Shown: piece by piece, positions 38,455 to 61,664 of the stretch | How positions within the stretch are numbered: position 1 is the first letter of the stretch | Layout of the letters: the number at the start of each line of letters is the position of its first letter | DNA from: Afifella marina DSM 2698 | Lineage (GTDB): Bacteria > Pseudomonadota > Alphaproteobacteria > Rhizobiales > Afifellaceae | Assembly (NCBI RefSeq): GCF_900102695.1 | Contig: NZ_FMVW01000007.1 | Coordinates: forward strand, 124,001 to 188,000 | Reading direction: 5' to 3' | Length of the DNA stretch: 64,000 nucleotides | Position numbers and translations under genes: made by a program | Notes under the pieces: model-generated | Seen by the model: the letters and a program-made list of their open reading frames with translations, nothing else | What the model was told of the DNA's origin: nothing | The model's database searches: none

Positions 38455-38792
38455 ATGCTAGTCCGCGGAAGAGACGCAGGATGGCGCACTCTCATGGCGC
38501 GGAGCCAAATGTCCGCTGGGCCGGAGCCGCATGCATCCCAGTCTCCCTCTTGTGGTGGGATCGACGTTCTCCCTGGTACGCGCCGCGCACTCCATTCCTC
38601 TCCCCGTTGGGGAGAGGTGCCCGCGTAGCGGGCGGTGAGGGGTGAGAGCGGCCACGAACTCAAACGCTTGATGCTGCGGCCACCCCTCATCCGGCGCCAC
38701 CTTCTCCCGAGAGGGGAGAAGAAAGGTCCGGCAACCGCCACACTGTGCATCGAAAACGGGTCAACACCCCACGCACAGCCAAGGCTCATACT
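38455..38792. repeat. Palindromic mosaic repeat (RIME-like), copy 1
   Basis: No gene is seen here. A repeat occupies about 38597-38722: palindrome CCTCTCCCC-GTT-GGGGAGAGG (38597-38617), a small hairpin CCCGC-GTA-GCGGG, GGTGAGGGGTG pairing with CACCCCTCATC about 50 nt later, and a closing palindrome CTTCTCCC-GAGA-GGGGAGAAG near 38702-38722. Copy 2 at 50062-50177 shares this architecture. It resembles the Rhizobium intergenic mosaic elements and sits between the receptor and permease genes of one operon. Confidence 0.7.
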
Positions 38793-45573: not shown

Positions 45574-46812
45574 ATGGCCAATTACGGAACGACCTTCGAC
45601 CAGGCGATCATAACCTTCGCGTCGGTGGCGCCCGATTATGGCTTCAACCTCGCCGAGGCTTTTGCGATCTGGGATCCGTGGATGGAGCCCGATTTCGTCC
45701 GAGCCGCCAATTTCATGTCCGCGGACATTCAGATCGACCAGGGTCCGATCGACGGCTACGGCGGCACGCTCGGCAATTGTGTGACCTATATGAGCGGCAC
45801 GACCATCACGAGCGCCGAGATCACCATCGACGAGGCCGATCCGGATCAGGATCACCTGTCGGTGCTCGCCCACGAGATCGGCCACGCCATCGGCCTCGAC
45901 CACGACGATGATCCCACCTCGATCATGTACCCCTATTCGATGGGCGTGATCACGCTGAACGCTGCAAACATCACCGAGCTGCAGTCCCTCTACGGGCCGG
46001 ATAGCGGCGACAATTATCTCGTTGGATCCGCCGAAGCCGACAATTTTTCCGGTGGCGGCGGCGCCGACACCATGTTCGGCGGCACGGGAGCGGACAACCT
46101 CCGCGGCGCGGACGGCGCCGACCTCATCTTCGGCGGCAAGGGCAATTTCGGCGATTATCTCGATGCCGGCAATGGCAATGACACGGTCTATGGCGGTGAC
46201 GGGGTCGACACGATCCACGGCGGCAGCGGCAACGATGCGCTCGGCGGCGGCGGCGGGACAGATCGCATCTATGGTGGCGACGGCGCAGATCTTCTCTTCG
46301 GCGGCGGCGATACGGCCGCCGACGATCTGAACGGCGAGGTTGGCAACGACGCCCTCTACGCCGGCGCCGGCAACGACACCCTGAACGGCGGCACCGGCAA
46401 CGACGAATTGGGCGGAGCCTCCGGCAACGACGTGCTCCAGGGCGGCGACGGCAACGACACGCTCTATGGCGCGGCCGGCAACGACACGCTTTACGGTGGC
46501 AACGGTGCCGACCTCCTCTTCGGAGGCACGGGTGACGACCAGATCTATCTCGGCACCTCTGACGGCGCCGCAGACATCTATGCCAGCGTCGCAGACAATG
46601 GCGACGACACCATCTTCGGCTTCGAGAACGGGATTGACCGGATCGATGTCTCCGACAACGGCTTCGGCAGCTTCTCCGAGCTCGCGATCGCCCAGGACGG
46701 CGCCGGCAACGCCACCCTCGATCTCGGTGGCGGAGATGTCCTGACATTGAACAACATCGCCGTCAGCGCTCTCGACGAAAGCGATTTCATCTTTCTGACG
46801 CTGACAAGCTGA
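45574..46812 (+). CDS. Matrixin-type metalloprotease with RTX repeats
   Basis: Predicted secreted zinc protease, 412 residues from ATG 45574 (AGAGGAA upstream). No N-terminal signal peptide is present, so type I secretion by C-terminal signal is likely. The zinc motif HEIGHAIGLDH is at 100-110 with Met-turn M118 in SIMYPYSMG, placing it in the metzincins (matrixin/serralysin). From about 149 to 335 runs a series of Ca-binding nonapeptides of the type GGxGxDxLx. The catalytic part (about 145 residues) is shorter than in serralysins. No type I secretion genes lie in this window. Confidence 0.88.
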   Translation: MANYGTTFDQAIITFASVAPDYGFNLAEAFAIWDPWMEPDFVRAANFMSADIQIDQGPIDGYGGTLGNCVTYMSGTTITSAEITIDEADPDQDHLSVLAHEIGHAIGLDHDDDPTSIMYPYSMGVITLNAANITELQSLYGPDSGDNYLVGSAEADNFSGGGGADTMFGGTGADNLRGADGADLIFGGKGNFGDYLDAGNGNDTVYGGDGVDTIHGGSGNDALGGGGGTDRIYGGDGADLLFGGGDTAADDLNGEVGNDALYAGAGNDTLNGGTGNDELGGASGNDVLQGGDGNDTLYGAAGNDTLYGGNGADLLFGGTGDDQIYLGTSDGAADIYASVADNGDDTIFGFENGIDRIDVSDNGFGSFSELAIAQDGAGNATLDLGGGDVLTLNNIAVSALDESDFIFLTLTS

Positions 46813-48543: not shown

Positions 48544-48559
48544 TTGACCAATTGGTCGA
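48544..48559. promoter_or_regulatory. RutR-type operator upstream of preT
   Basis: TTGACCAATTGGTCGA matches 15 of 16 positions of the published RutR consensus TTGACCAnnTGGTCAA. It is 52 nt upstream of the preT start and is nearly a perfect palindrome. A RutR-like repressor is encoded at 53556-54185, and the same motif recurs at 54276-54291. It probably represses preTA until uracil or thymine releases the repressor. Confidence 0.8.
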
Positions 48560-48610
48560 AAATGCGCATTCTTCCCGTGGGAACAGCAATATTCACGGGA
48601 GAAAAATGCC

Positions 48611-49990
48611 GTGAACCAGATTTCGTCAGGCCTGCCGGCAGCAACACCGGTGGACGAACCGGACATTTGTGCCGGCCGCCTAAATGTTGAAGATTACCTG
48701 AAGAATTTTTCTGACCTGCACCCGCCACTTTCGCCGCACGAAGCGCTGGTGGAGGCGGATCGTTGCTACTTTTGCTTCGACGCCCCCTGCACCGAGGCCT
48801 GCCCGACCTCGATCGATATCCCGCTCTTCATCCGCCAGATTCAGGCGCACAATCCCAAGGGCGCAGCGGAAACCATATTCGAAGAGAATATTCTGGGCGG
48901 CATGTGCGCCCGGGTCTGCCCGGTGGAGACTTTGTGCGAGGAAGCCTGCGTCCGCAATCTCGCCGAGGACAAGCCGGTGAAAATCGGCTTCCTGCAGCGC
49001 TTTGCGACCGACACGATGATGGCGGCGGGTGAGCATCCCTTTGCGCGCGCGGCCCGAAGCGGCAAGCGCGTCGCCATCGTCGGCGCGGGCCCGGCCGGCC
49101 TCTCCTGCGCCCATCGGCTGGCCATGCATGGCCACGACGTCACGATCTTCGAAGCGCGCGAGAAGCCGGGCGGCCTCAACGAATACGGCATCGCCGCCTA
49201 CAAGACCCCCGACGGCTTTGCCCAGAAGGAGGTCGAATTTCTGCTCAAGATCGGCGGCATCACCATCGAAGCCGGCAAGGCGCTCGGGCATGAGCTCAGC
49301 CTCGACGGCTTGAAGGCGGATTACGACGCCGTCTTCCTCGGCCTCGGACTTGCCGGCGTCAACGCGCTCGGCGCCGAAGGCGAAGACGCCTCAGGCTCCG
49401 CCGACGCCATCGCCTGGATCGCCGATCTGCGCCAGACGCTCGACCTTTCCACCTTGCCGATCGGCCGCCGCGTCGTCGTCATCGGCGGCGGCATGACGGC
49501 GGTCGATGCGGCCGTTCAGTCAAAACTCCTCGGCGCAGAGGAAGTCACGATCGCCTACCGCCGCGGCCCCGACGCGATGAAGGCCTCCGGTTTCGAACAG
49601 GAGCTCGCCCAGACGAAGGGCGTCACCATCCGCCATTGGGCCAAGCCGAAACGCCTCATTGCCGAGAACGGTCATCTGACCGGGATCGAGCTCGAGCGCA
49701 CCCGCGACGAAAACGGTCGTCTCCTCGGCACGGGCGAGACTTTCGTGCTCGCCGCCGACCAGGTCTTCAAGGCGATCGGCCAGACGTTTCTTCCCGCCTC
49801 GCTCGACGGCGCGTCCGAAGCCATCACGCTCGATGGCGGCCGCATTCAGGTCGACGAGGAACGCCGCACCTCGGTTGCCGGCATCTGGGCCGGTGGCGAC
49901 TGCATTTTGGGCGGCGAAGATCTCACCGTGGCGGCCGTCGAAGACGGCAAGGTCGCGGCCGAGAGCATCCACCGCGCATTGATGGGGTGA
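48611..49990 (+). CDS. preT: Dihydropyrimidine dehydrogenase subunit PreT
   Basis: NAD(P)H-oxidising, FAD and iron-sulfur subunit of bacterial dihydropyrimidine dehydrogenase, which reduces uracil and thymine with PreA. The 459 residues start at GTG 48611 (GGGAG upstream). The N-terminal cysteine-rich domain has CYFCFDAPCTEACPTSIDIP and GGMCARVCPVETLCEEAC; the FAD loop is VAIVGAGPAGLSCAHRL (about 150-166) and the NAD loop VVVIGGGMTAVDAA. It precedes preA with a 338-nt gap that holds a repeat element. A RutR-type site lies upstream. Confidence 0.95.
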   Translation: MNQISSGLPAATPVDEPDICAGRLNVEDYLKNFSDLHPPLSPHEALVEADRCYFCFDAPCTEACPTSIDIPLFIRQIQAHNPKGAAETIFEENILGGMCARVCPVETLCEEACVRNLAEDKPVKIGFLQRFATDTMMAAGEHPFARAARSGKRVAIVGAGPAGLSCAHRLAMHGHDVTIFEAREKPGGLNEYGIAAYKTPDGFAQKEVEFLLKIGGITIEAGKALGHELSLDGLKADYDAVFLGLGLAGVNALGAEGEDASGSADAIAWIADLRQTLDLSTLPIGRRVVVIGGGMTAVDAAVQSKLLGAEEVTIAYRRGPDAMKASGFEQELAQTKGVTIRHWAKPKRLIAENGHLTGIELERTRDENGRLLGTGETFVLAADQVFKAIGQTFLPASLDGASEAITLDGGRIQVDEERRTSVAGIWAGGDCILGGEDLTVAAVEDGKVAAESIHRALMG

Positions 49991-50328
49991 GTGTCATGCC
50001 GAGCCTCTCAAACAGCCTCGCCCCTCGGATCGGGGCACTATCAGTCGCAACAGGCTCCACTCCTCTCCCCATTGGGGAGAGGTGGCCGCGCGCCAACGGC
50101 GCGAGGTCGGTGAGGGGGCGGCGTCTCAGCCGGTCGCAGGAAGAGCTGAATGGGGAAAGGCAGCCCCCCTCACCGCCCGAGGACGGTGTATCCGCCCTCC
50201 GGCTGCGGCAGAAGAAGGACAGTATATCTCCGCTCGTCCGCCATACTGAACACAACCTCCCGCTCTGGTGCGGCCGCCTCGAATTTATCTCGTCTCGCCG
50301 AAACTCCCAAGCCTGAGAGGTTCTTCTC
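49991..50328. repeat. Palindromic mosaic repeat (RIME-like), copy 2
   Basis: No gene is seen. Repeat at 50062-50177: CCTCTCCCC-ATT-GGGGAGAGG (50062-50082), a hairpin CGCGCC-AAC-GGCGCG (bases about 50090-50104), GGTGAGGGGG (from 50109) pairing with CCCCCCTCACC (to about 50174). The outer blocks match copy 1 at 38597-38722 while the inner hairpin differs in sequence but not in position. It sits inside the preT-preA unit and may add an RNA structure between the two genes. Confidence 0.7.
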
Positions 50329-51663
50329 ATGGTCAGTCTCGCTTCGAACTTCCTCGGCATCAAATCGCCGAACCCGTTCTGGCTCGCCTCCGCGCCGCCG
50401 ACGGACAAGGAATACAACGTGGTCCGCGCCTTCCGCGAAGGCTGGGGCGGCGTCGTGTGGAAGACGCTCGGCGAGGACCCGCATATCGTCAACGTAAACG
50501 GCCCGCGCTACGGCGCCATTCACGGGCCCGACCGGCGGCTTCTGGGTCTCAACAACATCGAACTGATCACCGACCGGCCCCTGGAGGTGAACCTTCGCGA
50601 GATCAAACAGGTGAAGCGCGACTGGCCCGACCGCGCCGTCGTCGTCTCGCTCATGGTGCCCTGCGAAGAACAGAACTGGGTCAACATCCTGCGCCGCGTG
50701 GAAGAAACCGGCGCCGACGGGATCGAGCTCAATTTCGGCTGCCCGCATGGCATGTCGGAGCGCGGCATGGGTTCCGCCGTCGGCCAGGTGCCGGAATACA
50801 TCGAGATGGTCGCCCGCTGGTGCAAGGCGAATACACGCATGCCCGTCATCGTCAAGCTGACGCCGAACATCACCGACATTCGCTACCCGGCAAGGGCGGC
50901 AAAGAAGGGCGGGGCCGACGCCGTCTCCCTGATCAACACCATCTCTTCCATCACCGGCGTCGATCTCGATCTCTTCGCCCCGGAACCGACGATCGACGGC
51001 AAGGGCTCGCATGGCGGCTATTGCGGTCCCGCGGTGAAGCCGATCGCCCTCAACATGGTGGCCGAGATCGCCCGCGACCCGGAAACCCGCAATTTGCCGA
51101 TCTCCGGCATCGGCGGCATCACGACGTGGAAGGACGCGGCGGAGTTCATGGCGCTCGGCGCCGGCAACGTCCAGGTCTGCACCGCGGCGATGACCTACGG
51201 CTTCAAGATCGTCCGCGAGATGGTGGAAGGTCTTGAACGCTGGATGTCCGAGAAGGGTTTTGAGACCCTCGACGACTTCATCGGCCGCGCCGTGCCGAAC
51301 GTCACCGACTGGCAGTATCTGAACCTCAACTATGTCACCAAAGCGCGCATCGATCAGGAGCTCTGCGTCAAATGCGGGCGCTGCCACATCGCCTGCGAGG
51401 ACACCTCGCACCAGGCGATCACCCACATGGTAGATGGCAAACGCCATTTCGAGGTGATCGACGCCGAATGTGTCGGCTGCAATCTCTGCGTCAATGTCTG
51501 CCCGGTCGAGAACTGCATCACCATGGAGCAGATCGCCGATTACGATCCGCGCACCAAGAAGCCGATCCCGGCGGAATACGGCAACTGGACGCGCCATCCC
51601 AACAACCCGATGGGAACACCCGACGCCGAGATCGAGAAGATCGTCCCGGACGCGGCGGAGTAG
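50329..51663 (+). CDS. preA: Dihydropyrimidine dehydrogenase subunit PreA
   Basis: Catalytic FMN and 4Fe-4S subunit of NAD-dependent dihydropyrimidine dehydrogenase, 444 residues. A dihydroorotate dehydrogenase-like TIM barrel (about 1-320; NPFWLASAPPTD, FGCPHGMSERGMGSAVGQVPE, ISGIGGITTWKDAAEF) is followed by two 4Fe-4S clusters (CVKCGRCHIACEDTSHQ, CVGCNLCVNVCPVENC). Val151 stands where I recall mammalian DPD having its general-acid cysteine. PreT and PreA together start reductive uracil and thymine breakdown. Confidence 0.95.
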   Translation: MVSLASNFLGIKSPNPFWLASAPPTDKEYNVVRAFREGWGGVVWKTLGEDPHIVNVNGPRYGAIHGPDRRLLGLNNIELITDRPLEVNLREIKQVKRDWPDRAVVVSLMVPCEEQNWVNILRRVEETGADGIELNFGCPHGMSERGMGSAVGQVPEYIEMVARWCKANTRMPVIVKLTPNITDIRYPARAAKKGGADAVSLINTISSITGVDLDLFAPEPTIDGKGSHGGYCGPAVKPIALNMVAEIARDPETRNLPISGIGGITTWKDAAEFMALGAGNVQVCTAAMTYGFKIVREMVEGLERWMSEKGFETLDDFIGRAVPNVTDWQYLNLNYVTKARIDQELCVKCGRCHIACEDTSHQAITHMVDGKRHFEVIDAECVGCNLCVNVCPVENCITMEQIADYDPRTKKPIPAEYGNWTRHPNNPMGTPDAEIEKIVPDAAE

Positions 51664-51689
51664 GGTGATCCCTCTCCGCCGGCCGTGCG

Positions 51690-52553
51690 TCACCTCGCGC
51701 TGGCGATGGCCGACGAGCCGTCGGTGCTGTCTTCATCCCACCAGGCCAGGAGGCTCGCTCTCGCCTCCCCGAGGGTGTTCTGGACGGCGATGAGGTGCCA
51801 CCAGGCCGTGTTCGGCGTCCGTCGGACATAGTTGACGTCGCCAGCCTCGATGCAACGGTCGTAGAGCTTGAATCCGAAGAACATGTCCCGGCCGTCGAGG
51901 ATGGTATTGAAGGTGGCGCTCAGATTGCCTTCGACCTGTTCGGCCAGCTGCCGCTTGATATCGTCAGAGATCTTCTCTTCGGCGTCCGACGCACCGAGTT
52001 CCCCGCCGTTTTCTCCGCGCAACTCGATTCTGCCGTTGGCCATCAAAGATTTGTAACTTTGCGACACGCACAGCCCGTCTTGCTGCGCCCGCCGGATCGC
52101 CTGCGCGCAGAACTCGTTCTGGCTGAGCTTCCTAAATATTTCGATCCGCGAGGTGTCGTCGAGTTCGTACATCCGGACATTGGAGATCTTGACGGAGACT
52201 TCCCTGGCGCCGCTGGCGCTTAGATCCGGAACGAAACCTCCGAGCAGATTGAACGATCCTCCACTAGAGGAGGCGAAGGAAGCGACCTCGACCACGTCGG
52301 GAAGCCGGCTCAGTCTGCTGCGGTCGTCAATGTCCGCGGCACTGCAGACGATCCTCTCGATGCCGCCGTCGTAGCGCACCACATAGAGCGATCCGGGACC
52401 GTAGATGCTGCTCGGCGGCACCATCGGATCGACCCGAAAGTTCTTTCGGATGACGGCCTCGAAGCCCGCCCCGTGGACCAGCTGAAGCGCGGTCGCTCCT
52501 CCACCACCCAGGGCCGGGACACCGATGGCGAGCATGACGGCACGACGGTTCAT
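51690..52553 (-). CDS. Exported protein of unknown family
   Basis: I do not recognise this protein. It has 287 residues from ATG 52553 with a hydrophobic N-terminal segment (MNRRAVMLAIGVPALGGGGA) that looks like a signal peptide or a membrane anchor. The rest is mixed alpha/beta in appearance, with YGPGSLYVVRYDGGIERIVC and a C-terminal region AWWHLIAVQNTLGEARASLL. Its codon use looks less GC-biased than its neighbours, hinting at acquisition. It follows a 39-residue exported peptide gene by 18 nt on the same strand and interrupts the pyrimidine cluster. Convergent with preA. Confidence 0.7.
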   Translation of the reverse strand: MNRRAVMLAIGVPALGGGGATALQLVHGAGFEAVIRKNFRVDPMVPPSSIYGPGSLYVVRYDGGIERIVCSAADIDDRSRLSRLPDVVEVASFASSSGGSFNLLGGFVPDLSASGAREVSVKISNVRMYELDDTSRIEIFRKLSQNEFCAQAIRRAQQDGLCVSQSYKSLMANGRIELRGENGGELGASDAEEKISDDIKRQLAEQVEGNLSATFNTILDGRDMFFGFKLYDRCIEAGDVNYVRRTPNTAWWHLIAVQNTLGEARASLLAWWDEDSTDGSSAIASAR

Positions 52554-52571
52554 GGCAACAGCCCGCCGTTG

Positions 52572-52691
52572 TTATTTCGGGACGCAGAAGCCATTCACGA
52601 GCTTGGCGTTGTCGGGACACGCCAAGACCACAGAAGATCCCCACAAGAGGACGGTCAGACCGAGCGAAAAGGCAGCAAATCGATTCAACAT
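52572..52691 (-). CDS. Small exported Cys-containing peptide (39 aa)
   Basis: A 39-residue frame starting ATG 52691, preceded by GGAGGAG at good spacing. MLNRFAAFSLGLTVLLWGSS, then VVLA and Cys25, look like a signal peptide with a possible lipobox (VLAC). The mature part would be only about 15 residues with a second cysteine, Cys36 (KLVNGFCVPK), so it may be a lipoprotein or a disulfide-closed peptide. It heads a two-gene unit with the exported protein at 51690. No relative is known to me. Confidence 0.65.
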   Translation of the reverse strand: MLNRFAAFSLGLTVLLWGSSVVLACPDNAKLVNGFCVPK

Positions 52692-52903
52692 CGATATACT
52701 CTCCTCCACAAATACAATCGCCACACAACTTAAAGTGTATAGCATTTCTAAGCTGGATTCAACCGCGCAAGTAGATCAACCCACCTCTACGTGATAGGCA
52801 CCATCTATTCCGCACCATGCCGCGCCGGCGCGACGTGTGCCTCACGACCGGGAGAAATCAACGGGAAGAAAAGTCCGACAGGCCTTGTTCCCCGCCTCCG
52901 CCC

Positions 52904-53422
52904 CTATTCCGCCCCGCTTGCCGGCACGATCAACCCCTCGGGCACCAGCACCTTGTCGATGACGTCGATCAGGCCGTTGCTGGCCGCGATATCGGCCTTG
53001 CGGATCCGCGCCTCGCCGACCATCAGCTGATCGCCGATCGAGGTCACGGTCAGCTTCGAACCATCGAGCGTTTCGACCTCCGTCTCGCCGTCGAAGGATT
53101 TCGTCGGCAGCGCGGCCTCCACGATATGGTGGCGCAAGAGAGCGGCGAGCGTCTCCTTGCTGTCCGGCTTCTTCAGCATTTCTTCGAGCTCGCTCGGCAA
53201 TTGCTCGAAGGCGACATTGTCCGGCGCGAGCAGGGTCAGCGGCTCATCGCCCTGCAGCGTTTCCTTGAGGCCCGCCGTCTCGATGGCTTCCGCCAAAGAG
53301 GAAAGTTCCGGCCGGGTCTCGATCGCGCCCCACAGATTCGCCTCGGCGGCAAGCGCCGGCGCACTTTGAAGCCCAAGGCCGACAACAGCGGCGGCGGCCA
53401 GAATTTTGAGATGATTGCGCAC
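52904..53422 (-). CDS. Fasciclin (FAS1) domain protein, exported
   Basis: Secreted adhesion-type domain protein of 172 residues. The start is GTG at 53422, with GGAGG five bases upstream and a signal peptide directly after it (MRNHLKILAAAAVVGLGLQS, cleavage near ALAAEA). An open frame to 53485 lacks this. The FAS1 motifs are LTLLAPDNVAFEQLPSEL, LLRHHIVEAALPTKSF and NGLIDVIDKVLVPEGL. Bacterial FAS1 proteins bind surfaces or matrix; the ligand is unknown. Confidence 0.88.
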   Translation of the reverse strand: MRNHLKILAAAAVVGLGLQSAPALAAEANLWGAIETRPELSSLAEAIETAGLKETLQGDEPLTLLAPDNVAFEQLPSELEEMLKKPDSKETLAALLRHHIVEAALPTKSFDGETEVETLDGSKLTVTSIGDQLMVGEARIRKADIAASNGLIDVIDKVLVPEGLIVPASGAE

Positions 53423-53555
53423 GATATCCTCCCTCGTTGCGGGATCAACGGCGCGGGCCGGAACCCGTTCGATCGGCGCAGTCATATTTGCGCGAGCCGG
53501 CTTTCTGACGACGACAAGGAGGCGGAGGTGAGGCCTGCCGATCAGTGCTGCCCGA

Positions 53556-54185
53556 TCAGCGTGGCAGGAGGCCCTCGAGAACCACCCGCCGTATGGTCTC
53601 GGACGCGTGTTTAAACCGCCCCTCGTCGTCGGAGGCGAGCACCGCCCTCACCTGCACATCGAAATCGGCATAATGCTGGGTCGTTGCCCAGATCATGAAG
53701 ATGAGATGGCGCGGATCGACCGGACGGAGGCGGCCGGCCGCGATCCAATCGGCAATGATGCGCGATTTTTCATCGACGATCGCCTTCAAGGGCCCGTGGA
53801 GGAATTCCGTGATGGCGCCCCCGCCTTGCAGGATCTCGCTCGCAAAGAGCCGAGACGCCGCCGGATTGTCCCGCGACATGGCGATCTTCGCGTCGATATA
53901 GCGTGACAGCTCGTCCGCCGGGTCGCCATCGGCCTTCATCGCGGCAAGCGGTGCGAGCCATTGCGCCAGCGTCTCTTCCAGCACCGCCACGTAAAGGCTC
54001 TTCTTGCGCGGAAAGTAATAAAGAAGATTGGGCTTCGACATGCCCGCCTTTTCGGCGATCTCGTCGAGCGTGGCACCGCGATAACCATAGGCGGAAAAGA
54101 CGGAAAGCGCTGCCTGCAGAATGGCTTCGCGATTGACGGTCTGAATGCGCGTTCTCTTCCTCTTGGAGATGGCCTCATCCAGCAT
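53556..54185 (-). CDS. rutR: RutR-type TetR-family transcriptional regulator
   Basis: Repressor of pyrimidine catabolism of the RutR group, 209 residues. The N-terminal helix-turn-helix (about 20-66) includes REAILQAALSVFSAYGY and DEIAEKAGMSKPNLLYYFPRKKSLYVAVLE. The C-terminal ligand domain has SRLFASEILQGG, DEKSRIIADWIAAGRLRPVDPRHLIFMIWATTQHYADF, a near match to E. coli RutR as I recall it. Two RutR-type operators flank the catabolic genes in this window. It lies divergent from the beta-ureidopropionase gene with a 147-nt control region. Confidence 0.93.
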   Translation of the reverse strand: MLDEAISKRKRTRIQTVNREAILQAALSVFSAYGYRGATLDEIAEKAGMSKPNLLYYFPRKKSLYVAVLEETLAQWLAPLAAMKADGDPADELSRYIDAKIAMSRDNPAASRLFASEILQGGGAITEFLHGPLKAIVDEKSRIIADWIAAGRLRPVDPRHLIFMIWATTQHYADFDVQVRAVLASDDEGRFKHASETIRRVVLEGLLPR

Positions 54186-54215
54186 CTTTGCCCCGCCCGG
54201 ACCGATGCCTACTTG

Positions 54216-54233
54216 CTAGGCAGTCAGTCCAGC
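54216..54233. promoter_or_regulatory. Imperfect dyad near the rutR start
   Basis: ACTTGCTAGGCAGTCAGT just upstream of rutR shows partial dyad symmetry (ACT..CT....AG..AGT), like other TetR-family operators. It may mediate autoregulation of rutR, but only some positions are symmetric. Confidence 0.3.
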
Positions 54234-54275
54234 TTTTCGCCTTGACCGTAAATTAAGCCCCACCTAGCGTGAGAT

Positions 54276-54291
54276 TTGACCATTTAGTCAA
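54276..54291. promoter_or_regulatory. RutR-type operator upstream of the beta-ureidopropionase gene
   Basis: TTGACCATTTAGTCAA matches 15 of 16 positions of the RutR consensus TTGACCAnnTGGTCAA. It lies 42 nt before the GTG start at 54333 and in the shared control region with rutR, so it could control both divergent transcripts. A half-site TTGACC lies at 54242. Confidence 0.8.
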
Positions 54292-54332
54292 GTTTTCTGC
54301 CCCGCATGGCAGAAACCACAGGGGGGAATGCT

Positions 54333-55574
54333 GTGGACTCCAATCTGCGGATCAATGCCGACAGGCTGTGGAATTCCATCCACGAAATGGCCGAGATCGG
54401 ACCGGGCCTGCGCGGTGGCAACAACCGCCAGACCTTGACCGATGACGACGCCGAAGGCCGTCGCCTGTTCCAGAAATGGTGCGACGAGGCCGGGCTCACG
54501 ATGGGCATCGACGAGATGGGCACGATGTTCGCCCGTCGCGAAGGCACGGACCCGGACGCCCTGCCCGTCTATGTCGGCTCCCATCTCGATACGCAGCCGA
54601 CCGGCGGCCGCTATGACGGCGTTTTAGGCGTGCTCGGCGCGCTTGAGGCCGTGCGTTCGCTCAACGACCTCAACATCAAGACGAAGCACCCGATCGTCGT
54701 CGTCAACTGGACGAACGAGGAAGGTGCGCGCTTCGCCCCGGCGATGCTCGCCTCCGGCGTTTTCGCCGGCGTGCACACGCTCGATTACGCCTATGGCCGC
54801 AAGGATCTCGAAGGCAAGACCTTCGGCGAGGAACTCGCCCGCATCGGCTGGAAGGGCGACGAAAAAGTCGGCGCGCGCAAGATGCACGCTTATTACGAAT
54901 TGCATATCGAGCAGGGCCCGATCCTCGAAGCCGAGAAGAAGGAAATCGGCGTCGTCACCCATTGCCAGGGTCTCTGGTGGCTCGAATTCACGCTGACCGG
55001 CAAGGAGGCCCATACCGGCTCCACGCCGATGGCCATGCGCGTCAATGCCGGCCTCGCCATGGCCCGCATCTTTGAGATGGTGCAGAAGGTGGCGATGGAC
55101 GCACAGCCGAACGCCGTCGGCGGCGTCGGCCAGGTGACGTTCCAGCCGAACTCGCGCAACGTTTTGCCCGGCAAGGTCGTCTTCACCGTCGATATCCGCA
55201 CCGTCGATCAGGAGAAACTCGACGGCATGCGCGCCCGCATCGAGAAGGAAGCGGCCGAAATTTGCGCCGAGATCGGCGTCGGCTGCGAGGTGGAGGCGGT
55301 CGGCCATTTCGATCCGGTCACCTTCACGCCCGAGCTCGTCGCCACCGTGCGCAAGGCCGCCGGAACCCTCGGTTACTCTCATATGGACATCGTGTCGGGC
55401 GCCGGCCACGACGCCTGCTGGGCGGCAAAAGTCGCCCCCGCCACCATGGTCATGTGCCCTTGCGTCGACGGCCTGTCGCACAATGAAGACGAAGACATTT
55501 CCAAGGAATGGGCAGAGGCCGGCGCCAATGTCCTCTTCCACGCAGTGGTCGAAACCGCGGAGATTGTGAGCTGA
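54333..55574 (+). CDS. Zn-dependent amidohydrolase, probable beta-ureidopropionase (PydC type)
   Basis: M20-fold N-carbamoyl hydrolase that would convert N-carbamoyl-beta-alanine to beta-alanine, CO2 and ammonia, the last step of reductive pyrimidine breakdown. The start is GTG at 54333, with AGGGGGG upstream; ATG 54306 has none. The 413 residues include GSHLDTQPTGGRYDG (zinc site), VVNWTNEEGARFAP, ELHIEQGPILE and SGAGHDACWAAKVAP. The carbamoylase family has other members (amino-acid carbamoylases), so substrate choice rests on context: PreTA, dihydropyrimidinase and RutR. Confidence 0.9.
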   Translation: MDSNLRINADRLWNSIHEMAEIGPGLRGGNNRQTLTDDDAEGRRLFQKWCDEAGLTMGIDEMGTMFARREGTDPDALPVYVGSHLDTQPTGGRYDGVLGVLGALEAVRSLNDLNIKTKHPIVVVNWTNEEGARFAPAMLASGVFAGVHTLDYAYGRKDLEGKTFGEELARIGWKGDEKVGARKMHAYYELHIEQGPILEAEKKEIGVVTHCQGLWWLEFTLTGKEAHTGSTPMAMRVNAGLAMARIFEMVQKVAMDAQPNAVGGVGQVTFQPNSRNVLPGKVVFTVDIRTVDQEKLDGMRARIEKEAAEICAEIGVGCEVEAVGHFDPVTFTPELVATVRKAAGTLGYSHMDIVSGAGHDACWAAKVAPATMVMCPCVDGLSHNEDEDISKEWAEAGANVLFHAVVETAEIVS

Positions 55575-55626
55575 GCGGCACTGCCCTAATGTCTGGCAAG
55601 ACCAACGAGCCGGGTCATCTCGCAAA

Positions 55627-55824
55627 ATGGCGACTGAGAACCTCATCCTGGAGCATCTGCGGGCGATCCGCGCGACCCTCGACCGTCACGGCGATGAACT
55701 GCGGGAAATCAAAAGCCGGCTCGGCATTCTCGAACAACAATATGCAAGTTTATCCGTTCGCATCGACCGGATCGACGAGCGCGTGGCACGCATCGAGCGG
55801 CGGCTCGACCTGCAGGAAGCCTGA
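55627..55824 (+). CDS. Small coiled-coil protein, 65 aa
   Basis: A 65-residue predicted helical coiled coil: MATENLILEHLRAIRATLDR then heptads with Leu/Ile (LREIKSRLGILEQQYASLSV, RIDRIDERVARIERRLDLQE). Similar small proteins occur widely in alphaproteobacteria, often beside toxin genes, but no PIN toxin is adjacent. It lies 52 nt after the beta-ureidopropionase gene and before the dihydropyrimidinase gene. Function unknown; codon use is normal. Confidence 0.75.
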   Translation: MATENLILEHLRAIRATLDRHGDELREIKSRLGILEQQYASLSVRIDRIDERVARIERRLDLQEA

Positions 55825-55935
55825 CCTGCATCGCCCTCGACAGCAAAACCACGACCGCTCGCAAATCAGTGCCCGGCTCGAGCCTGCGGACGATAGAAAA
55901 AGCGATGCCCACCTTCTGACGGGAGCAAGAGCGCC

Positions 55936-57390
55936 ATGACCAAGATCATCAAGGGCGGAACGGTCGTCACAGCTGACCGCACCTACAAGGCCGACGTCTT
56001 CATCCAGCACGACAAGATCGTGGCCGTCGGTCCCGACCTCAACCACGACGCCGATCACGTGATCGATGCGACCGGCTGCTACGTGATGCCAGGCGGTATC
56101 GACCCGCACACCCATATGGAAATGCCCTTCATGGGCACGCATTCGACCGACGATTTCGATTCCGGCACGGCCGCGGCGCTTGCCGGCGGCACCACGATGA
56201 CGGTCGATTTCTGCCTGCCGGCGCCGAACCAGGGCCTGATCGACGCGCTCCAGCAATGGTACCAGAAGGCCGGCAAGGCGCGCACCGACTATTCCTTCCA
56301 CATGGCCATCACCTGGTGGGACAAGCAGGTCTTCGACGAGATGCCGAAGGTCGTCGAACAGGGCATCAACACCTTCAAGCATTTCATGGCCTATAAGGGC
56401 TCCTTGATGGTGAACGACGACGAGATGTTCGCTTCCTTCTCCCGCTGCGCGGAGATCGGGGCGATGCCGCTCGTCCATGCCGAAAACGGCGATGTCGTCG
56501 CCTTCCTGCAGCAAAAGCTCCTCGCCGAAGGCAACAACGGTCCGGAAGCGCACGGCTTTTCACGCCCGCCGGAAGTCGAGGGCGAGGCCGCCAACCGCGC
56601 CATCATGATCGCCGATCAGGCGGGCGTGCCGCTTTATGTGGTGCATGTCTCCTGCGAGCAGACGCATGAGGCGATCCGCCGGGCGCGCCAGAAGGGCATG
56701 CGCGTCTTCGGCGAGCCGCTCATCCAGCATCTTCTCCTCGACGAGAACGAATACCTGAACGACGATTGGGATTATGCCGCCCGCCGGGTGATGTCGCCGC
56801 CCTTCCGCAGCAAGGATCATCAGAACTCGCTTTGGGCGGGGCTTGCCGCGGGTTCTCTCCAGGTCGTCGCCACCGACCATTGCGCCTTCACGACCGAGCA
56901 GAAGCGCATGGGCCTCGGAGACTTCACCAAGATCCCGAACGGCACCGGCGGCATCGAGGAGCGTCTGCCGCTTCTGTGGACCTATGGCGTTCGGACGGGC
57001 CGGCTGACGATGAACGAATTCGTCGCCGCCACCTCTACCAACATCGCCAAGATCCTCAACATCTATCCGCGGAAGGGCGCGATCGTCGAAGGGGCTGACG
57101 CCGACATCATCATCTGGGATCCCGAGGCGACGAAGACGATCACCGCGGGGAGCCAGAAATCGGCGATCGACTACACGGTCTTCGAGGGCATGCCCGTGCA
57201 TGGCCTGCCGAGAATGACCCTGTCGCGCGGCCGCGTCGCCTATGAGGAGGGCGAGGTGAAGGCCGACACCGGCGACGGTCGCTTCGTGGAGCGCCCGGCC
57301 AATCCGCCGGTTGCGAAGGCTCTGTCGACGTGGAAGGAGCTCACCGCGCCGCGCCGCGTGGAACGCGCGGGCATCCCGGCAGGTGTTTGA
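55936..57390 (+). CDS. Dihydropyrimidinase (D-hydantoinase family)
   Basis: Zinc amidohydrolase that opens dihydrouracil or dihydrothymine to the N-carbamoyl compound, second step of reductive pyrimidine breakdown. The 484 residues contain the metal ligands His58 and His60 (DPHTHMEMPF), the carboxylated Lys154 in FMAYKG, His181 (HAENGD), His236 (HVSCEQ) and Asp313 (ATDHCAF). All expected ligands are present. It lies between the beta-ureidopropionase and ABC transporter genes. Confidence 0.95.
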   Translation: MTKIIKGGTVVTADRTYKADVFIQHDKIVAVGPDLNHDADHVIDATGCYVMPGGIDPHTHMEMPFMGTHSTDDFDSGTAAALAGGTTMTVDFCLPAPNQGLIDALQQWYQKAGKARTDYSFHMAITWWDKQVFDEMPKVVEQGINTFKHFMAYKGSLMVNDDEMFASFSRCAEIGAMPLVHAENGDVVAFLQQKLLAEGNNGPEAHGFSRPPEVEGEAANRAIMIADQAGVPLYVVHVSCEQTHEAIRRARQKGMRVFGEPLIQHLLLDENEYLNDDWDYAARRVMSPPFRSKDHQNSLWAGLAAGSLQVVATDHCAFTTEQKRMGLGDFTKIPNGTGGIEERLPLLWTYGVRTGRLTMNEFVAATSTNIAKILNIYPRKGAIVEGADADIIIWDPEATKTITAGSQKSAIDYTVFEGMPVHGLPRMTLSRGRVAYEEGEVKADTGDGRFVERPANPPVAKALSTWKELTAPRRVERAGIPAGV

Positions 57391-57449
57391 GGAGCCACAT
57401 GCGCCACGCCTCTTTCATCCCATCAACGCATTCGGGAGCCTAGAGGCCC

Positions 57450-58307
57450 ATGGTCGAAGCTGAAACCGCGGCCTCACCGGCCGCATCCGCCGCGCCTCCC
57501 AAAGCGGCGCCCGCCAAACCGGCGCATACCGGCGCGGTCATCGCCGCCTCCGATCTGTCGCTGACCTTTCAGACGGCCGACGGCCCGGTCCAAGCGCTTG
57601 CCGATATCGACCTTGCGATCCATCGCGGCGAATTCGTCTCGCTGATCGGCCCGTCCGGTTGCGGCAAGACCACCTTGCTGCGTGTCATCGCCGATCTCGA
57701 ACAGCCGACATCGGGCGAGATCAGCGTCAACGGCGTCTCGCCCGATGCGGCGCGCCGCGAGCGCTCCTACGGCTATGTCTTTCAGTCCGCGGCGCTCTAT
57801 CCCTGGCGCACCATCGCCAAGAACGTCGCTTTGCCGCTCGAAATCATGGGTCTGCCGAAGGCCGAACAGCAGAAGCGGGTCAAAAAGAACCTCGAGCTCG
57901 TCAACCTGTCGGGATTTGAGCGCAAATTTCCCTGGCAGCTTTCCGGCGGCATGCAGCAGCGCGCCTCCATCGCCCGCGCCCTCGCCGTGGAGCCGGACCT
58001 TCTTTTGATGGACGAGCCGTTTGGCGCGCTCGACGAGATCGTCCGCGATCACCTCAACGAGCAGCTCCTGCAGCTCTGGGCCAAGACCAACAAGACCATC
58101 GTCTTCGTCACCCACTCGATCCCCGAAGCGGTGTTTCTGTCCTCGAAGATCGTCGTCATGTCGCCGCGCCCGGGCCGCATCTACGACGTCATCGATTGCG
58201 GCCTCCCCCGCGACCGCGGCCTCGACATCCGCGAGACGCCGGAATTCCTGGCAATCGCCCACCGCGTCCGCGAAGGCCTCCGCGCCGGCCATTCCTATGA
58301 GGATTGA
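57450..58307 (+). CDS. ABC transporter ATP-binding protein (nitrate/taurine/pyrimidine-type)
   Basis: ATPase subunit of an NMT1/THI5-type import system, 285 residues. An Ala/Pro-rich N-terminal stretch (about 1-30) precedes the ATPase core. Walker A GPSGCGKTTLL, ABC signature LSGGMQQRASIARAL and Walker B LLLMDEPFGALDE are intact, with the H-loop THSIPEAVFLS. It probably imports pyrimidines or their derivatives given the RutR-linked cluster. A repeat separates it from the first permease. Confidence 0.92.
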   Translation: MVEAETAASPAASAAPPKAAPAKPAHTGAVIAASDLSLTFQTADGPVQALADIDLAIHRGEFVSLIGPSGCGKTTLLRVIADLEQPTSGEISVNGVSPDAARRERSYGYVFQSAALYPWRTIAKNVALPLEIMGLPKAEQQKRVKKNLELVNLSGFERKFPWQLSGGMQQRASIARALAVEPDLLLMDEPFGALDEIVRDHLNEQLLQLWAKTNKTIVFVTHSIPEAVFLSSKIVVMSPRPGRIYDVIDCGLPRDRGLDIRETPEFLAIAHRVREGLRAGHSYED

Positions 58308-58401
58308 GATGCGGGCCCGCGACTTTGCTCTCGATCCGACCCCAGCGTTTGTGCCGTCAAAAGCCGGCCCGGAATCCCGGGGCGCCGGGGACGCTTTTGG
58401 C

Positions 58402-58429
58402 GTCCCCCTCCCCCTTGTGGGGAGGGGAC
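58402..58429. repeat. Short palindromic repeat inside the ABC transporter operon
   Basis: GTCCCCCTCCCC...GGGGAGGGGAC forms an imperfect 11-bp palindrome with one bulged C and a 5-base loop, followed by CAGGGGTGGGGGTC. It resembles the palindromes of the mosaic repeats at 38597 and 50062 in base composition and lies in the 195-nt gap between the ATPase and the permease. Confidence 0.55.
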
Positions 58430-58502
58430 AGGGGTGGGGGTCGAACGAAGGCCTGAAGGCGGCCGCTTGTCCGTCCGAGTCCCCAGTCAAAGGGGCGCAC
58501 CT

Positions 58503-59435
58503 ATGAGTGAGATCGCGGAGCCCGGCGGCGGGGTCGGTTATGCGCCGCGAGTGTGGGTTCAGCGCATCTTCGCTGGCCAGACGGGCCCCGTCCTCGTCGT
58601 CGTCGCCGCCCTCATTCTCATCTGGTATGCGGGCGCGATTTATCTCAACGCCCCGCAGCAGATCGACCGCGACCGCCGCGCCGGCATCGAGCGCAATTTC
58701 ATCGACTTCGCCGCCGCCACCTACGCCCAGGAGCGCCCGGTCCTGCCGGCCCCGCATCAGGTGGCCGCGGAAATCTGGAAGACGACCGTCGAGGTGAAGC
58801 CGACCTCGAAGCGCAGCCTCATCTATCACGGCTGGGTGACGCTCTCCTCCACGCTGACGGGCTTCGGCATCGGCACGCTTTTGGGCATCGTGCTTGCGAT
58901 CGGCATCGTCTCCTCGCGCACGCTCGACAAGAGCCTGATGCCCTGGATCATCACCTCGCAGACGATCCCGATCCTGGCGATCGCGCCGATGATCGTCGTC
59001 GTTCTCGGCTCGCTCAACGTAGCGCCGATCTGGGCGAAGGGCACCGTCTCCGCCTATCTCGCCTTCTTTCCGGTCGCCGTCGGCATGGTGAAGGGGCTGA
59101 GATCGCCCGACCCGATGCTGCTCGATCTGATGCGCACCTATTCGGCAAGCCCGACCCAGACGATGTGGAAGCTGCGCCTGCCGGCCGCGATGCCCTTCCT
59201 GTTTGCAAGCCTCAAAGTCGCGATCGCCATCTCGCTCGTCGGTGCGATCGTCGGCGAAATGCCGACCGGCGCCCGCGCCGGGCTTGGCGCCCGTCTCTTG
59301 TCGGGTTCCTATTACGGCCAGACGGTGCAGATCTGGTCGGCCCTGCTGGTGGCCGCATTCATGGCGGCGATCCTCGTCACCATCGTCGGAATGGCCGATC
59401 GCATGGTGCTGCGCCGCATGGGGGTGAAGGCGTGA
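58503..59435 (+). CDS. ABC transporter permease 1
   Basis: Integral membrane subunit, 310 residues, ATG at 58503 with AGGGG upstream. It has one N-terminal membrane segment (VLVVVAALILIWYAGAIYL), then about 80 mostly polar residues (about 50-110) before the BPD_transp_1 core of five to six segments. The EAA-like loop, TYSASPTQTMWKLRLPAAMPFL, contacts the ATPase. The TGA stop overlaps the GTG start of the second permease (GTGA). Confidence 0.88.
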   Translation: MSEIAEPGGGVGYAPRVWVQRIFAGQTGPVLVVVAALILIWYAGAIYLNAPQQIDRDRRAGIERNFIDFAAATYAQERPVLPAPHQVAAEIWKTTVEVKPTSKRSLIYHGWVTLSSTLTGFGIGTLLGIVLAIGIVSSRTLDKSLMPWIITSQTIPILAIAPMIVVVLGSLNVAPIWAKGTVSAYLAFFPVAVGMVKGLRSPDPMLLDLMRTYSASPTQTMWKLRLPAAMPFLFASLKVAIAISLVGAIVGEMPTGARAGLGARLLSGSYYGQTVQIWSALLVAAFMAAILVTIVGMADRMVLRRMGVKA

Positions 59436-60574
59436 GCGCGGCACATATCACCGCCGAGCGGCCGCAGAGCCAGGGCGCCTTCCTGCTCACCGTTCTGGCG
59501 GCGATCTTTGCCATCGTCGCGTTGCCTCTGCCTATTTCCGAAGGTGGCTCGCGGGTTGGGGGCTCCTCGCTCCTGCTTGCCTCCCTCCTCCTCGTCGTCC
59601 CGACGACGGGTTGGCCGCGCATCGTGGGCTTGCGCCTTCTTCTCAATGCCGTCATCGCGACCGCCGCCTTCGGCCTTCTCCTGGCGCTCCTGTCGGCCGT
59701 GGAAGGGCGGGCGGGCCTCGGTTACTGGGCGGTGTTGACGGCGACCGCCTTTCTCACCGTCCAGGTGATGCGTGATCTCGCACGCCTGACGGAGGGCCGG
59801 CCGACGCCTCTGCGGCGCGCCTTCTCGCTCGCCGTACCCGTCGTCTTCGGACTGTGGCTCCTGATCTTGTGGGAATGCCTGGTGCGCGGCTTCGGGGTGC
59901 CGCCGGTACTCCTGCCGCCGCCGAGCGCCATTGCCGTCACCTTTGCCTCATCGCTTCCCACGCTCTGGGCCGATTTCAGGCAGACCTTTTTGAAGGCCGT
60001 CATTGCCGGCTATGCGATGGGCTGCGGTGCGGGCTTTCTGCTTGCCCTTCTCGTCGACCGCGTGCCCTTCTTGAAGCGCGGGCTCCTGCCCGTCGGCAAC
60101 CTCGTCTCAGCACTTCCGATCGTCGGCATCGCCCCGATCATGGTCATGTGGTTCGGCTTCGACTGGCCGTCGAAGGCGGCCGTCGTCGTCGTCATGACCT
60201 TCTTTCCGATGCTGGTGAACACGGTCTCGGGCCTCAATGCCGCCGGCGCCATGGAACGCGACCTCATGCGCACCTATGCGGCGACCCACACCCAATCGCT
60301 CATCAAGCTGCGCCTGCCGGCGGCGCTGCCCTTCATCTTCAACGCCCTCAAGATCAACTCCACCCTCGCCCTGATTGGCGCGATTGTTGCAGAGTTCTTC
60401 GGCACGCCGATCGTCGGCATGGGGTTCCGGATTTCGACCGAAGTCGGGCGCATGAACATCGACATGGTCTGGGCGGAAATCACCGTCGCGGCCATTGCAG
60501 GCTCGCTCTTCTACGGCCTCGTCGCCCTGATCGAGCGCACCCTGACATTCTGGCATCCGTCCTACCGACATTAG
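59432..60574 (+). CDS. ABC transporter permease 2 with N-terminal membrane extension
   Basis: Second permease subunit, 380 residues from GTG 59432, overlapping the previous stop by 4 nt. About 130 N-terminal residues form extra hydrophobic segments (LLTVLAAIFAIVALPL, SLLLASLLLVV, ATAAFGLLLALLSAV) not needed for the core permease, which begins around residue 140 with VFGLWLLILWECLVRGF. The EAA loop is RTYAATHTQSLIKLRLPAAL. Heterodimer with permease 1 is likely. Confidence 0.87.
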   Translation: MSAAHITAERPQSQGAFLLTVLAAIFAIVALPLPISEGGSRVGGSSLLLASLLLVVPTTGWPRIVGLRLLLNAVIATAAFGLLLALLSAVEGRAGLGYWAVLTATAFLTVQVMRDLARLTEGRPTPLRRAFSLAVPVVFGLWLLILWECLVRGFGVPPVLLPPPSAIAVTFASSLPTLWADFRQTFLKAVIAGYAMGCGAGFLLALLVDRVPFLKRGLLPVGNLVSALPIVGIAPIMVMWFGFDWPSKAAVVVVMTFFPMLVNTVSGLNAAGAMERDLMRTYAATHTQSLIKLRLPAALPFIFNALKINSTLALIGAIVAEFFGTPIVGMGFRISTEVGRMNIDMVWAEITVAAIAGSLFYGLVALIERTLTFWHPSYRH

Positions 60575-60605
60575 GGCGGCGCCCCAATAAAAGAGGGAGA
60601 ATGGT

Positions 60606-61604
60606 ATGAAACGAGTTTTGGCAGCTCTCGGACTGGCCGTCGGCATGACCGCCATCGCAGCCGGCCCCGCGGCCGCAGACGACAATGTCGTGCTGCAGCT
60701 CAAATGGGTCACGCAAGCCCAGTTCGGCGGCTATTACGTCGCCCAGGACAAGGGCTTTTACGACGAGGCCGGCCTTGATGTCGAAATCAAGCCGGGCGGC
60801 CCCGACATCGCGCCGGAACAGGTGATCGCCGGCGGCGGCGCCGATGTCATCGTCGACTGGATGCCGGCAGCCCTTGCGGCCCGCGAGCGCGGCGTCCCCC
60901 TCGTCAACATCGCCCAGCCCTTTGCCAAATCCGGCATGGAGCTCACCTGCCTCAAAGAGACCGGCATCACCAAGCCGGAGGATTTCAAAGGCAAGACGCT
61001 CGGCGTCTGGTTCTTCGGCAACGAATATCCGTTCCTGTCGTGGATGAGCCATCTCGGCATTCCGACGACCGGCGGCGAGGATGGCGTCACCGTCATCAAG
61101 CAGGGCTTCAACGTCGACCCGCTGATCCAGAAGCAGGCCGATTGCATCTCCACGATGACCTACAACGAATACTGGCAGGTGATCGACGCCGGCATCCCGG
61201 AAGATGAACTCGTCGTCTTCAAATACGAGGATCAGGGCGTCGCGACGCTCGAAGACGGGCTCTACGTCATGGAAGAGAACCTTCAGGATCCCGAATTCGT
61301 CGACAAGATGGCCCGCTTCGTAAAGGCCTCCATGAAGGGCTGGGACTATGCCCGCGAGCATCCGGACGAGGCGGCCGAGATCGTGCTCGACAACGACGAC
61401 ACCGGCGCCCAGACCGAAAAGCACCAAAAGCGCATGATGCGCGAAATCAACAAGCTGACGGAAGGCTCCGACGGCACACTCAACGTCGAAGATTACGACC
61501 GCACCGTGAAGACGTTGCTCGAAGGCGGTTCCGACCCGGTCATTACCAAGGAGCCGGAAGGCGCCTACACGACAGCCGTCACCGACAAGATGAAGGAGAT
61601 GTGA
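60606..61604 (+). CDS. NMT1/THI5-like ABC transporter substrate-binding protein
   Basis: Periplasmic receptor, 332 residues. The signal peptide MKRVLAALGLAVGMTAIAAG ends near PAAAD. The mature chain opens VVLQLKWVTQAQFGGYYVAQDKG, the motif of the NMT1/THI5 (pyrimidine-precursor or thiamine-precursor) receptor group. GGGADVIVDWMPAALAARERG and TLGVWFFGNEYP line the probable ligand cleft. The genomic context suggests a pyrimidine-type ligand. Followed by the terminator at 61638. Confidence 0.9.
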   Translation: MKRVLAALGLAVGMTAIAAGPAAADDNVVLQLKWVTQAQFGGYYVAQDKGFYDEAGLDVEIKPGGPDIAPEQVIAGGGADVIVDWMPAALAARERGVPLVNIAQPFAKSGMELTCLKETGITKPEDFKGKTLGVWFFGNEYPFLSWMSHLGIPTTGGEDGVTVIKQGFNVDPLIQKQADCISTMTYNEYWQVIDAGIPEDELVVFKYEDQGVATLEDGLYVMEENLQDPEFVDKMARFVKASMKGWDYAREHPDEAAEIVLDNDDTGAQTEKHQKRMMREINKLTEGSDGTLNVEDYDRTVKTLLEGGSDPVITKEPEGAYTTAVTDKMKEM

Positions 61605-61637
61605 GCCGGGCTCACATCATTTGCGCACATGACAACG

Positions 61638-61664
61638 AAAGGGGGGCTCAGGCCTCCCTTTTTT
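61638..61664 (+). terminator. Intrinsic terminator of the pyrimidine/ABC operon
   Basis: A 10-bp stem AAAGGGGGGC / GCCTCCCTTT with one G-T wobble, loop TCAG, and a TTTT tail on the plus strand, 34 nt past the receptor stop. Its right arm overlaps the end of the convergent mgtC coding region. Confidence 0.8.

Follow-up and report, generated by a model that had tools for sequence, protein, structure and literature searches.

Which process does a RutR-type repressor serve when its gene lies beside those of the reductive, not the oxidative, pathway of pyrimidine degradation? The question is raised by a locus at positions 48611-61604 of a 64,000-nucleotide stretch of Afifella marina DSM 2698 (contig NZ_FMVW01000007.1, positions 124,001 to 188,000; hereafter the window, with positions counted from its first letter), which encodes preT, preA, a divergent rutR, a beta-ureidopropionase (bup), a dihydropyrimidinase (hydA) and a four-gene ATP-binding cassette (ABC) importer, on the strands given in an earlier, sequence-only reading of the window (Table 1). 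We find that the unit very probably serves the scavenging and reductive degradation of pyrimidines (uracil or thymine), and that it belongs to a known and widespread kind: rhizobia and related bacteria often carry this arrangement, which makes the locus ordinary. Genes of this kind are annotated in RegPrecise and SEED. The locus is of interest as a clean, recurring case in which a RutR-type repressor gene accompanies the reductive pathway, and the substrate of its importer is open to direct testing.

Gene content and gene order in related genomes

The genes named in the sequence-only reading (preT, preA, a RutR-type repressor, dihydropyrimidinase, beta-ureidopropionase and an NMT1/THI5-type ABC set) are all present by family or domain matches, and the gene content supports its view that the set is complete from presumed import to beta-alanine. 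PreA, the dihydropyrimidinase and the M20-type hydrolase read as beta-ureidopropionase all score above curated NCBIfam cut-offs; preT is putatively identified by its domains and its position next to preA, and the importer genes are named, with the same caution, from domains and position. The components of a Pyd cluster are thus predicted together, with both subunits of dihydropyrimidine dehydrogenase, a dihydropyrimidinase and, by family, a beta-ureidopropionase, and so are those of an importer, the ATPase, permeases and NMT1 binding protein being encoded together.

We compared this layout with 84 related loci, namely the best 80 of 593 confirmed places at which an alignment of five RutR sequences (A1) matched the genome collection, and four annotated plasmid loci, a sample picked by RutR similarity and hence biased towards loci like that of the window. 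All nine genes occur in the window's order in 35 of the 84 (by a test blind to other genes between them), a further 16 have the order from rutR to the binding-protein gene without preTA in the available stretch, and the remaining 33 are partial or altered, some of them perhaps cut by contig ends. In 51 loci rutR, bup, hydA and the importer genes form one block in that order, and preA and preT recur in 58 and 54 loci, respectively.

A less biased sample, 199 genomes from the taxonomic order of the window's host, contains the binding protein (E ≤ 1e-60) in 84 genomes, PreA (E ≤ 1e-100) in 68, RutR (E ≤ 1e-20) in 88 and all three in 64. In 46 of the 199, preA and the binding-protein gene each start at most 30 kb from a rutR on the same contig; among genomes with both genes concerned, the binding protein lies within that distance of rutR in 64/81 and preA in 55/66. 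As genes on separate contigs were scored as not near, these 30-kb counts are probably too low.

That reading had left open whether the arrangement is described, and its gene order turns out to be annotated already in at least two replicons. Sinorhizobium meliloti pSymB (CP090106, L035) carries genes for an NAD(P)-dependent oxidoreductase, preA, a divergent rutR, a Zn-dependent hydrolase, hydA, an ABC ATPase, two permeases and a binding protein in equal order, but preA and rutR are separated by five genes, two of which encode transposases, a cupin gene and a GNAT gene stand in the part from hydA to the importer, and RutR identity is 53%. A plasmid of Qingshengfaniella alkalisoli (NZ_CP042265, L038) has the nine genes in equal order and orientation and with no insert; it differs from the window in lacking the orphan and fasciclin genes found here between preA and rutR, and in a RutR identity of 49%. 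Outside the alphaproteobacteria, the same functions are encoded, rearranged and among insertion sequences, on a Klebsiella quasipneumoniae plasmid (NZ_CP091807.1, typed IncFIA; L037).

Operators

The window holds two candidate RutR operators, one before preT and one between rutR and bup. Each has one mismatch to the pattern TTGACCANNTGGTCAA, which we adopted from the sequence-only reading and take to be the E. coli RutR consensus; both sites are present as that reading would have it, and they are conserved in relatives, but its count of 15 out of 16 matching bases includes two N positions, the agreement being 13 of the 14 specified bases.

By itself, the motif is weak evidence. At up to three mismatches, the window contains 3 matches where 0.98 are expected, and 7 of 100 shuffles gave at least as many; at one mismatch, only the two operators are found. 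Genome-wide, 15 places lie within two mismatches of the motif and 8 within two of the reversed pattern, for which reason we dropped the motif alone as evidence. Three places in the genome have a single mismatch, the two operators and one inside a 691-residue reading frame that we take for a glycogen-debranching enzyme, an assignment made without searching families. Of the 13 places other than the two operators, 8 were inspected; each of these overlaps a reading frame of 100 residues or more, and we rejected them as further regulon members. Family scans of the genes at two of the eight place one site 58 bases inside a leuC-matching frame; the other falls in a 343-residue frame that has no family match at a limit of E 1e-20 and neighbours a UbiD-family gene.

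What makes the operators convincing is that the site recurs before preT and rutR in relatives. Among the 54 loci with preT, 3 are too short upstream, and in the 51 scored a site is found in 19, 39 and 51 at up to two, three and four mismatches, respectively; the reversed pattern, run only to three mismatches, occurs in none of the 51, and permuted palindromes at up to two mismatches occur on average in 0.03 loci and at most in 1. Upstream of rutR, 80 of the 84 loci have a profile match above the 99% level of shuffled sequence, the profile being built not from rutR sites but from preT sites, largely those of the same loci, and the shuffles preserving base composition only. The reverse complement of operator 2, TTGACTAAATGGTCAA, recurs unchanged upstream of rutR in loci L049 and L057, both from Aurantimonas.

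The preT sites of the relatives often depart from symmetry, with A for C at position 14 of 16 in 46 of the 51 and A for G at position 12 in 45, as in TTGACCAATTGATAAA; the preT site of the window retains the symmetric bases at both positions.

Repressor

The repressor passes the NCBIfam RutR model NF011584 (236.4 bits, cut-off 230), matches Pfam PF08362 with 171.5 bits and aligns over residues 9-209, nearly its entire length, with the solved E. coli-type RutR chains 3loc and 4jyk, which share one sequence (E 7e-63). It differs from the E. coli Rut system in its surroundings: its neighbours are genes of the reductive pathway, and RutA (TIGR03612) has no match in the genome of origin, which is 99.7% complete and in which this and the other absences reported below come from single family searches with positive controls, here 7 of 14 control genomes including E. 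coli. We read it as a RutR-like or PydR-type protein and not as the RutR of a Rut operon.

In several genomes of the same taxonomic order, two RutR-type genes lie in tandem on the same strand, about 0.7 kb apart (e.g., G089:C1:797144 and 797857; G050:C12:161947 and 162660).

A predicted route from import to beta-alanine

Gene identities from families and solved structures, a recurring gene order and conserved operators are what we observe; from these we infer the enzyme activities in this organism, what the importer carries, the effector, repression itself and how far the second transcript reaches. In the route we propose, the ABC importer would take up a pyrimidine base or something closely derived from one; PreTA would reduce uracil or thymine to dihydrouracil or dihydrothymine, whose ring the dihydropyrimidinase would open, and the M20 hydrolase would release ammonia, CO2 and beta-alanine or its methyl analogue. 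When pyrimidine is absent, the RutR-type repressor would sit on both operators and shut off preTA, the bup, hydA and ABC genes and probably its own gene, and binding of uracil or thymine would release it. One methylmalonate-semialdehyde dehydrogenase scores above its cut-off in the genome of origin and could extend the pathway further.

Several observations weigh against this reading. On the side of control, no profile match was found 5' of rutR in 4 of the 84 loci (L037, L068, L072 and L089), the region upstream of bup has a site in only 33/77 loci at up to three mismatches (reversed pattern 3/77), and under the same limit sites are absent before hydA (0/71) and the binding-protein gene sbp (0/60) and few before the ATPase gene (4/70). 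With these scarce sites and a 361-base gap between bup and hydA, control of the importer would need one long predicted transcript. Upstream of preA (350 bases before to 60 after its start), an operator-like match occurs in 13/55 loci at three mismatches where none is expected, the reversed pattern giving 0. On the side of the proteins, the repressor fails the RutR equivalog model TIGR03613 (256.3 bits, cut-off 368), and among the matches listed PreT (25 of 84 models) and the ATPase (25 of 186 models) are above no NCBIfam cut-off, nor are permease 1 and the binding protein among theirs. To these come the nearest relatives of the binding protein and the M20 hydrolase, on which two other explanations build.

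Among PDB chains, the binding protein is closest to one of the thiamin-precursor type, the N-formyl-4-amino-5-aminomethyl-2-methylpyrimidine binding protein 3ix1 (E 1e-17); next come a solute-binding protein without a name and THI5/THI13 chains. Together with the family name NMT1/THI5, this could mean that the importer carries a thiamin-precursor pyrimidine, in the manner of ThiY or THI5, and adjoins the Pyd genes for other reasons. We hold this to be improbable, given that rutR, bup, hydA and the importer genes keep together in that order in both classes of related loci (35 with and 16 without preTA), that the binding protein stays within 30 kb of rutR in most sampled genomes with both (64/81), and that the genome's two other NMT1-family proteins score higher on the family model (239.7 and 174.5 against 145.5 bits), either of them being a candidate thiamin-type protein. 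The names of the enzymes' relatives would similarly fit a unit mainly for hydantoins or N-carbamoyl amino acids, consisting of a D-hydantoinase and a carbamoylase: both families include such enzymes, the two best PDB chains of the dihydropyrimidinase are 4tqt (D-hydantoinase) and 3dc8 (dihydropyrimidinase), and those of the M20 hydrolase are N-carbamoyl-L-amino-acid hydrolases (8apz, E 4e-234; 8aq0, E 1e-231), with an N-carbamoyl-beta-alanine amidohydrolase third (8c46, E 1e-217) and a best NCBIfam model, NF006769 (692.1 bits, cut-off 452), that is named 'allantoate amidohydrolase'. Against a hydantoin unit stands the recurrence, beside the same genes, of preT and/or preA (54/84 and 58/84) and of a RutR-type gene with operator-like sites, and we give this explanation even less credit than the thiamin one.

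Pyrimidine import and degradation is the reading we retain. Neither NCS2 (PF00860) nor NCS1 (PF02133) permeases were found in the genome of origin, other importer families lying outside the search. The phrase 'pyrimidine ABC transporter' occurs in a published figure legend on ocean microbes.

Relation to published pyrimidine regulons

Control of pyrimidine catabolism by RutR-type proteins is already in print, and so is a RutR-like repressor acting on the reductive pathway. One open-access paper names both RutR and dihydropyrimidinase. The RutR regulon of pyrimidine catabolism was reconstructed in silico in 68 proteobacterial genomes from 13 taxonomic groups, with 743 RutR target genes (10.9 per genome) and taxon-specific substitutions in the motif (PMC5343134). 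Bacterial Pyd clusters are described in PMC7332683, which cites Hidese 2012; the title of the latter names PydR of Pseudomonas putida, a RutR-like protein, as repressing the gene for dihydropyrimidine dehydrogenase, and it is by that title alone that we count PydR as alike. Upregulation of preA and hydA by RedB is reported in PMC9603854.

A possible beta-alanine supply

One point of possible weight beyond annotation is the supply of beta-alanine in organisms without panD. PanD (PF02261) has no match in the genome of origin, and because no panD was found the unit may, by analogy with Rhizobium etli, also supply beta-alanine for pantothenate and coenzyme A. According to PMC7142369, Rhizobium etli is without panD and its mutant in amaB, encoding beta-alanine synthase, requires beta-alanine; rhizobial beta-ureidopropionases (AmaB) convert 3-ureidopropionate to beta-alanine, and we liken them to the M20 hydrolase of the window by predicted function and not by sequence comparison. 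According to the same text, single and double mutants of Agrobacterium fabrum C58 remain prototrophic, which speaks against a general dependence on this route. The genome of origin (G000) also has one PF00282 decarboxylase, at C14:67449, which may be an alternative source of beta-alanine and make that of the unit redundant. A stronger proposal strikes us as rather unlikely: that in this genome the RutR-controlled unit also counts among the main suppliers of beta-alanine for making pantothenate and coenzyme A, which would place a vitamin precursor under a repressor that senses pyrimidines, and that the ABC set is the cell's sole dedicated base importer.

Layout and neighbouring genes

Table 1. 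Features of the pyrimidine unit and the genes within it (window positions).
Feature	Position	Strand	Basis or remark
RutR-type operator 1, TTGACCAATTGGTCGA	48544..48559	.	51 bases 5' of the called preT GTG start
preT-type dihydropyrimidine dehydrogenase subunit (putative)	48611..49990	+	Pfam Fer4_20 124 bits, Pyr_redox_2 128 bits
preA, flavin mononucleotide (FMN) and 4Fe-4S subunit of dihydropyrimidine dehydrogenase	50329..51663	+	NF006183 PreA 733.8 bits, cut-off 335
287-residue orphan between preA and rutR	51690..52553	-	No family match (Pfam/NCBIfam)
Fasciclin-domain protein	52904..53485	-	PF02469 107 bits
rutR-type TetR-family repressor	53556..54185	-	NF011584, PF08362, solved RutR chains
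RutR-type operator 2, TTGACCATTTAGTCAA	54276..54291	.	Intergenic, between rutR and bup
M20-type amidohydrolase, read as N-carbamoyl-beta-alanine amidohydrolase (beta-ureidopropionase, bup)	54306..55574	+	NF006769, PDB relatives
Dihydropyrimidinase (hydA)	55936..57390	+	TIGR02033 599.5 bits, cut-off 393.25
ABC importer ATPase	57450..58307	+	PF00005 119 bits
ABC importer permease 1	58503..59435	+	PF00528 94 bits
ABC importer permease 2	59432..60574	+	PF00528 81 bits; GTG start overlaps permease 1 end
NMT1/THI5-type substrate-binding protein (sbp)	60606..61604	+	PF09084 144 bits
Terminator-like hairpin and T run, 3' of the binding-protein gene	61638..61664	+	By-eye reading of sequence

The open reading frame of permease 1 opens with a GTG at 58434, and we set its start at the ATG at 58503. 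The orphan and the fasciclin gene, both on the minus strand between preA and rutR, were absent from the account of the sequence-only reading. The orphan has no match in the plasmid collection either, and by eye its N-terminus is signal-like. At the thresholds used, neither gene is found in any of the 84 related loci, a set that does not cover same-genus genomes possibly outside the collection; we consider them unlikely members on this ground, and both probably stand outside the unit.

Short GC-rich inverted repeats of the type CTCTCCCC...GGGGAGAG lie at 38598, 50063 and 58406, two of them in intergenic gaps of this unit, and possibly belong to an interspersed repeat family. At 45574-46812, the window encodes an RTX-repeat protein with a matrixin-like (M10) peptidase domain.

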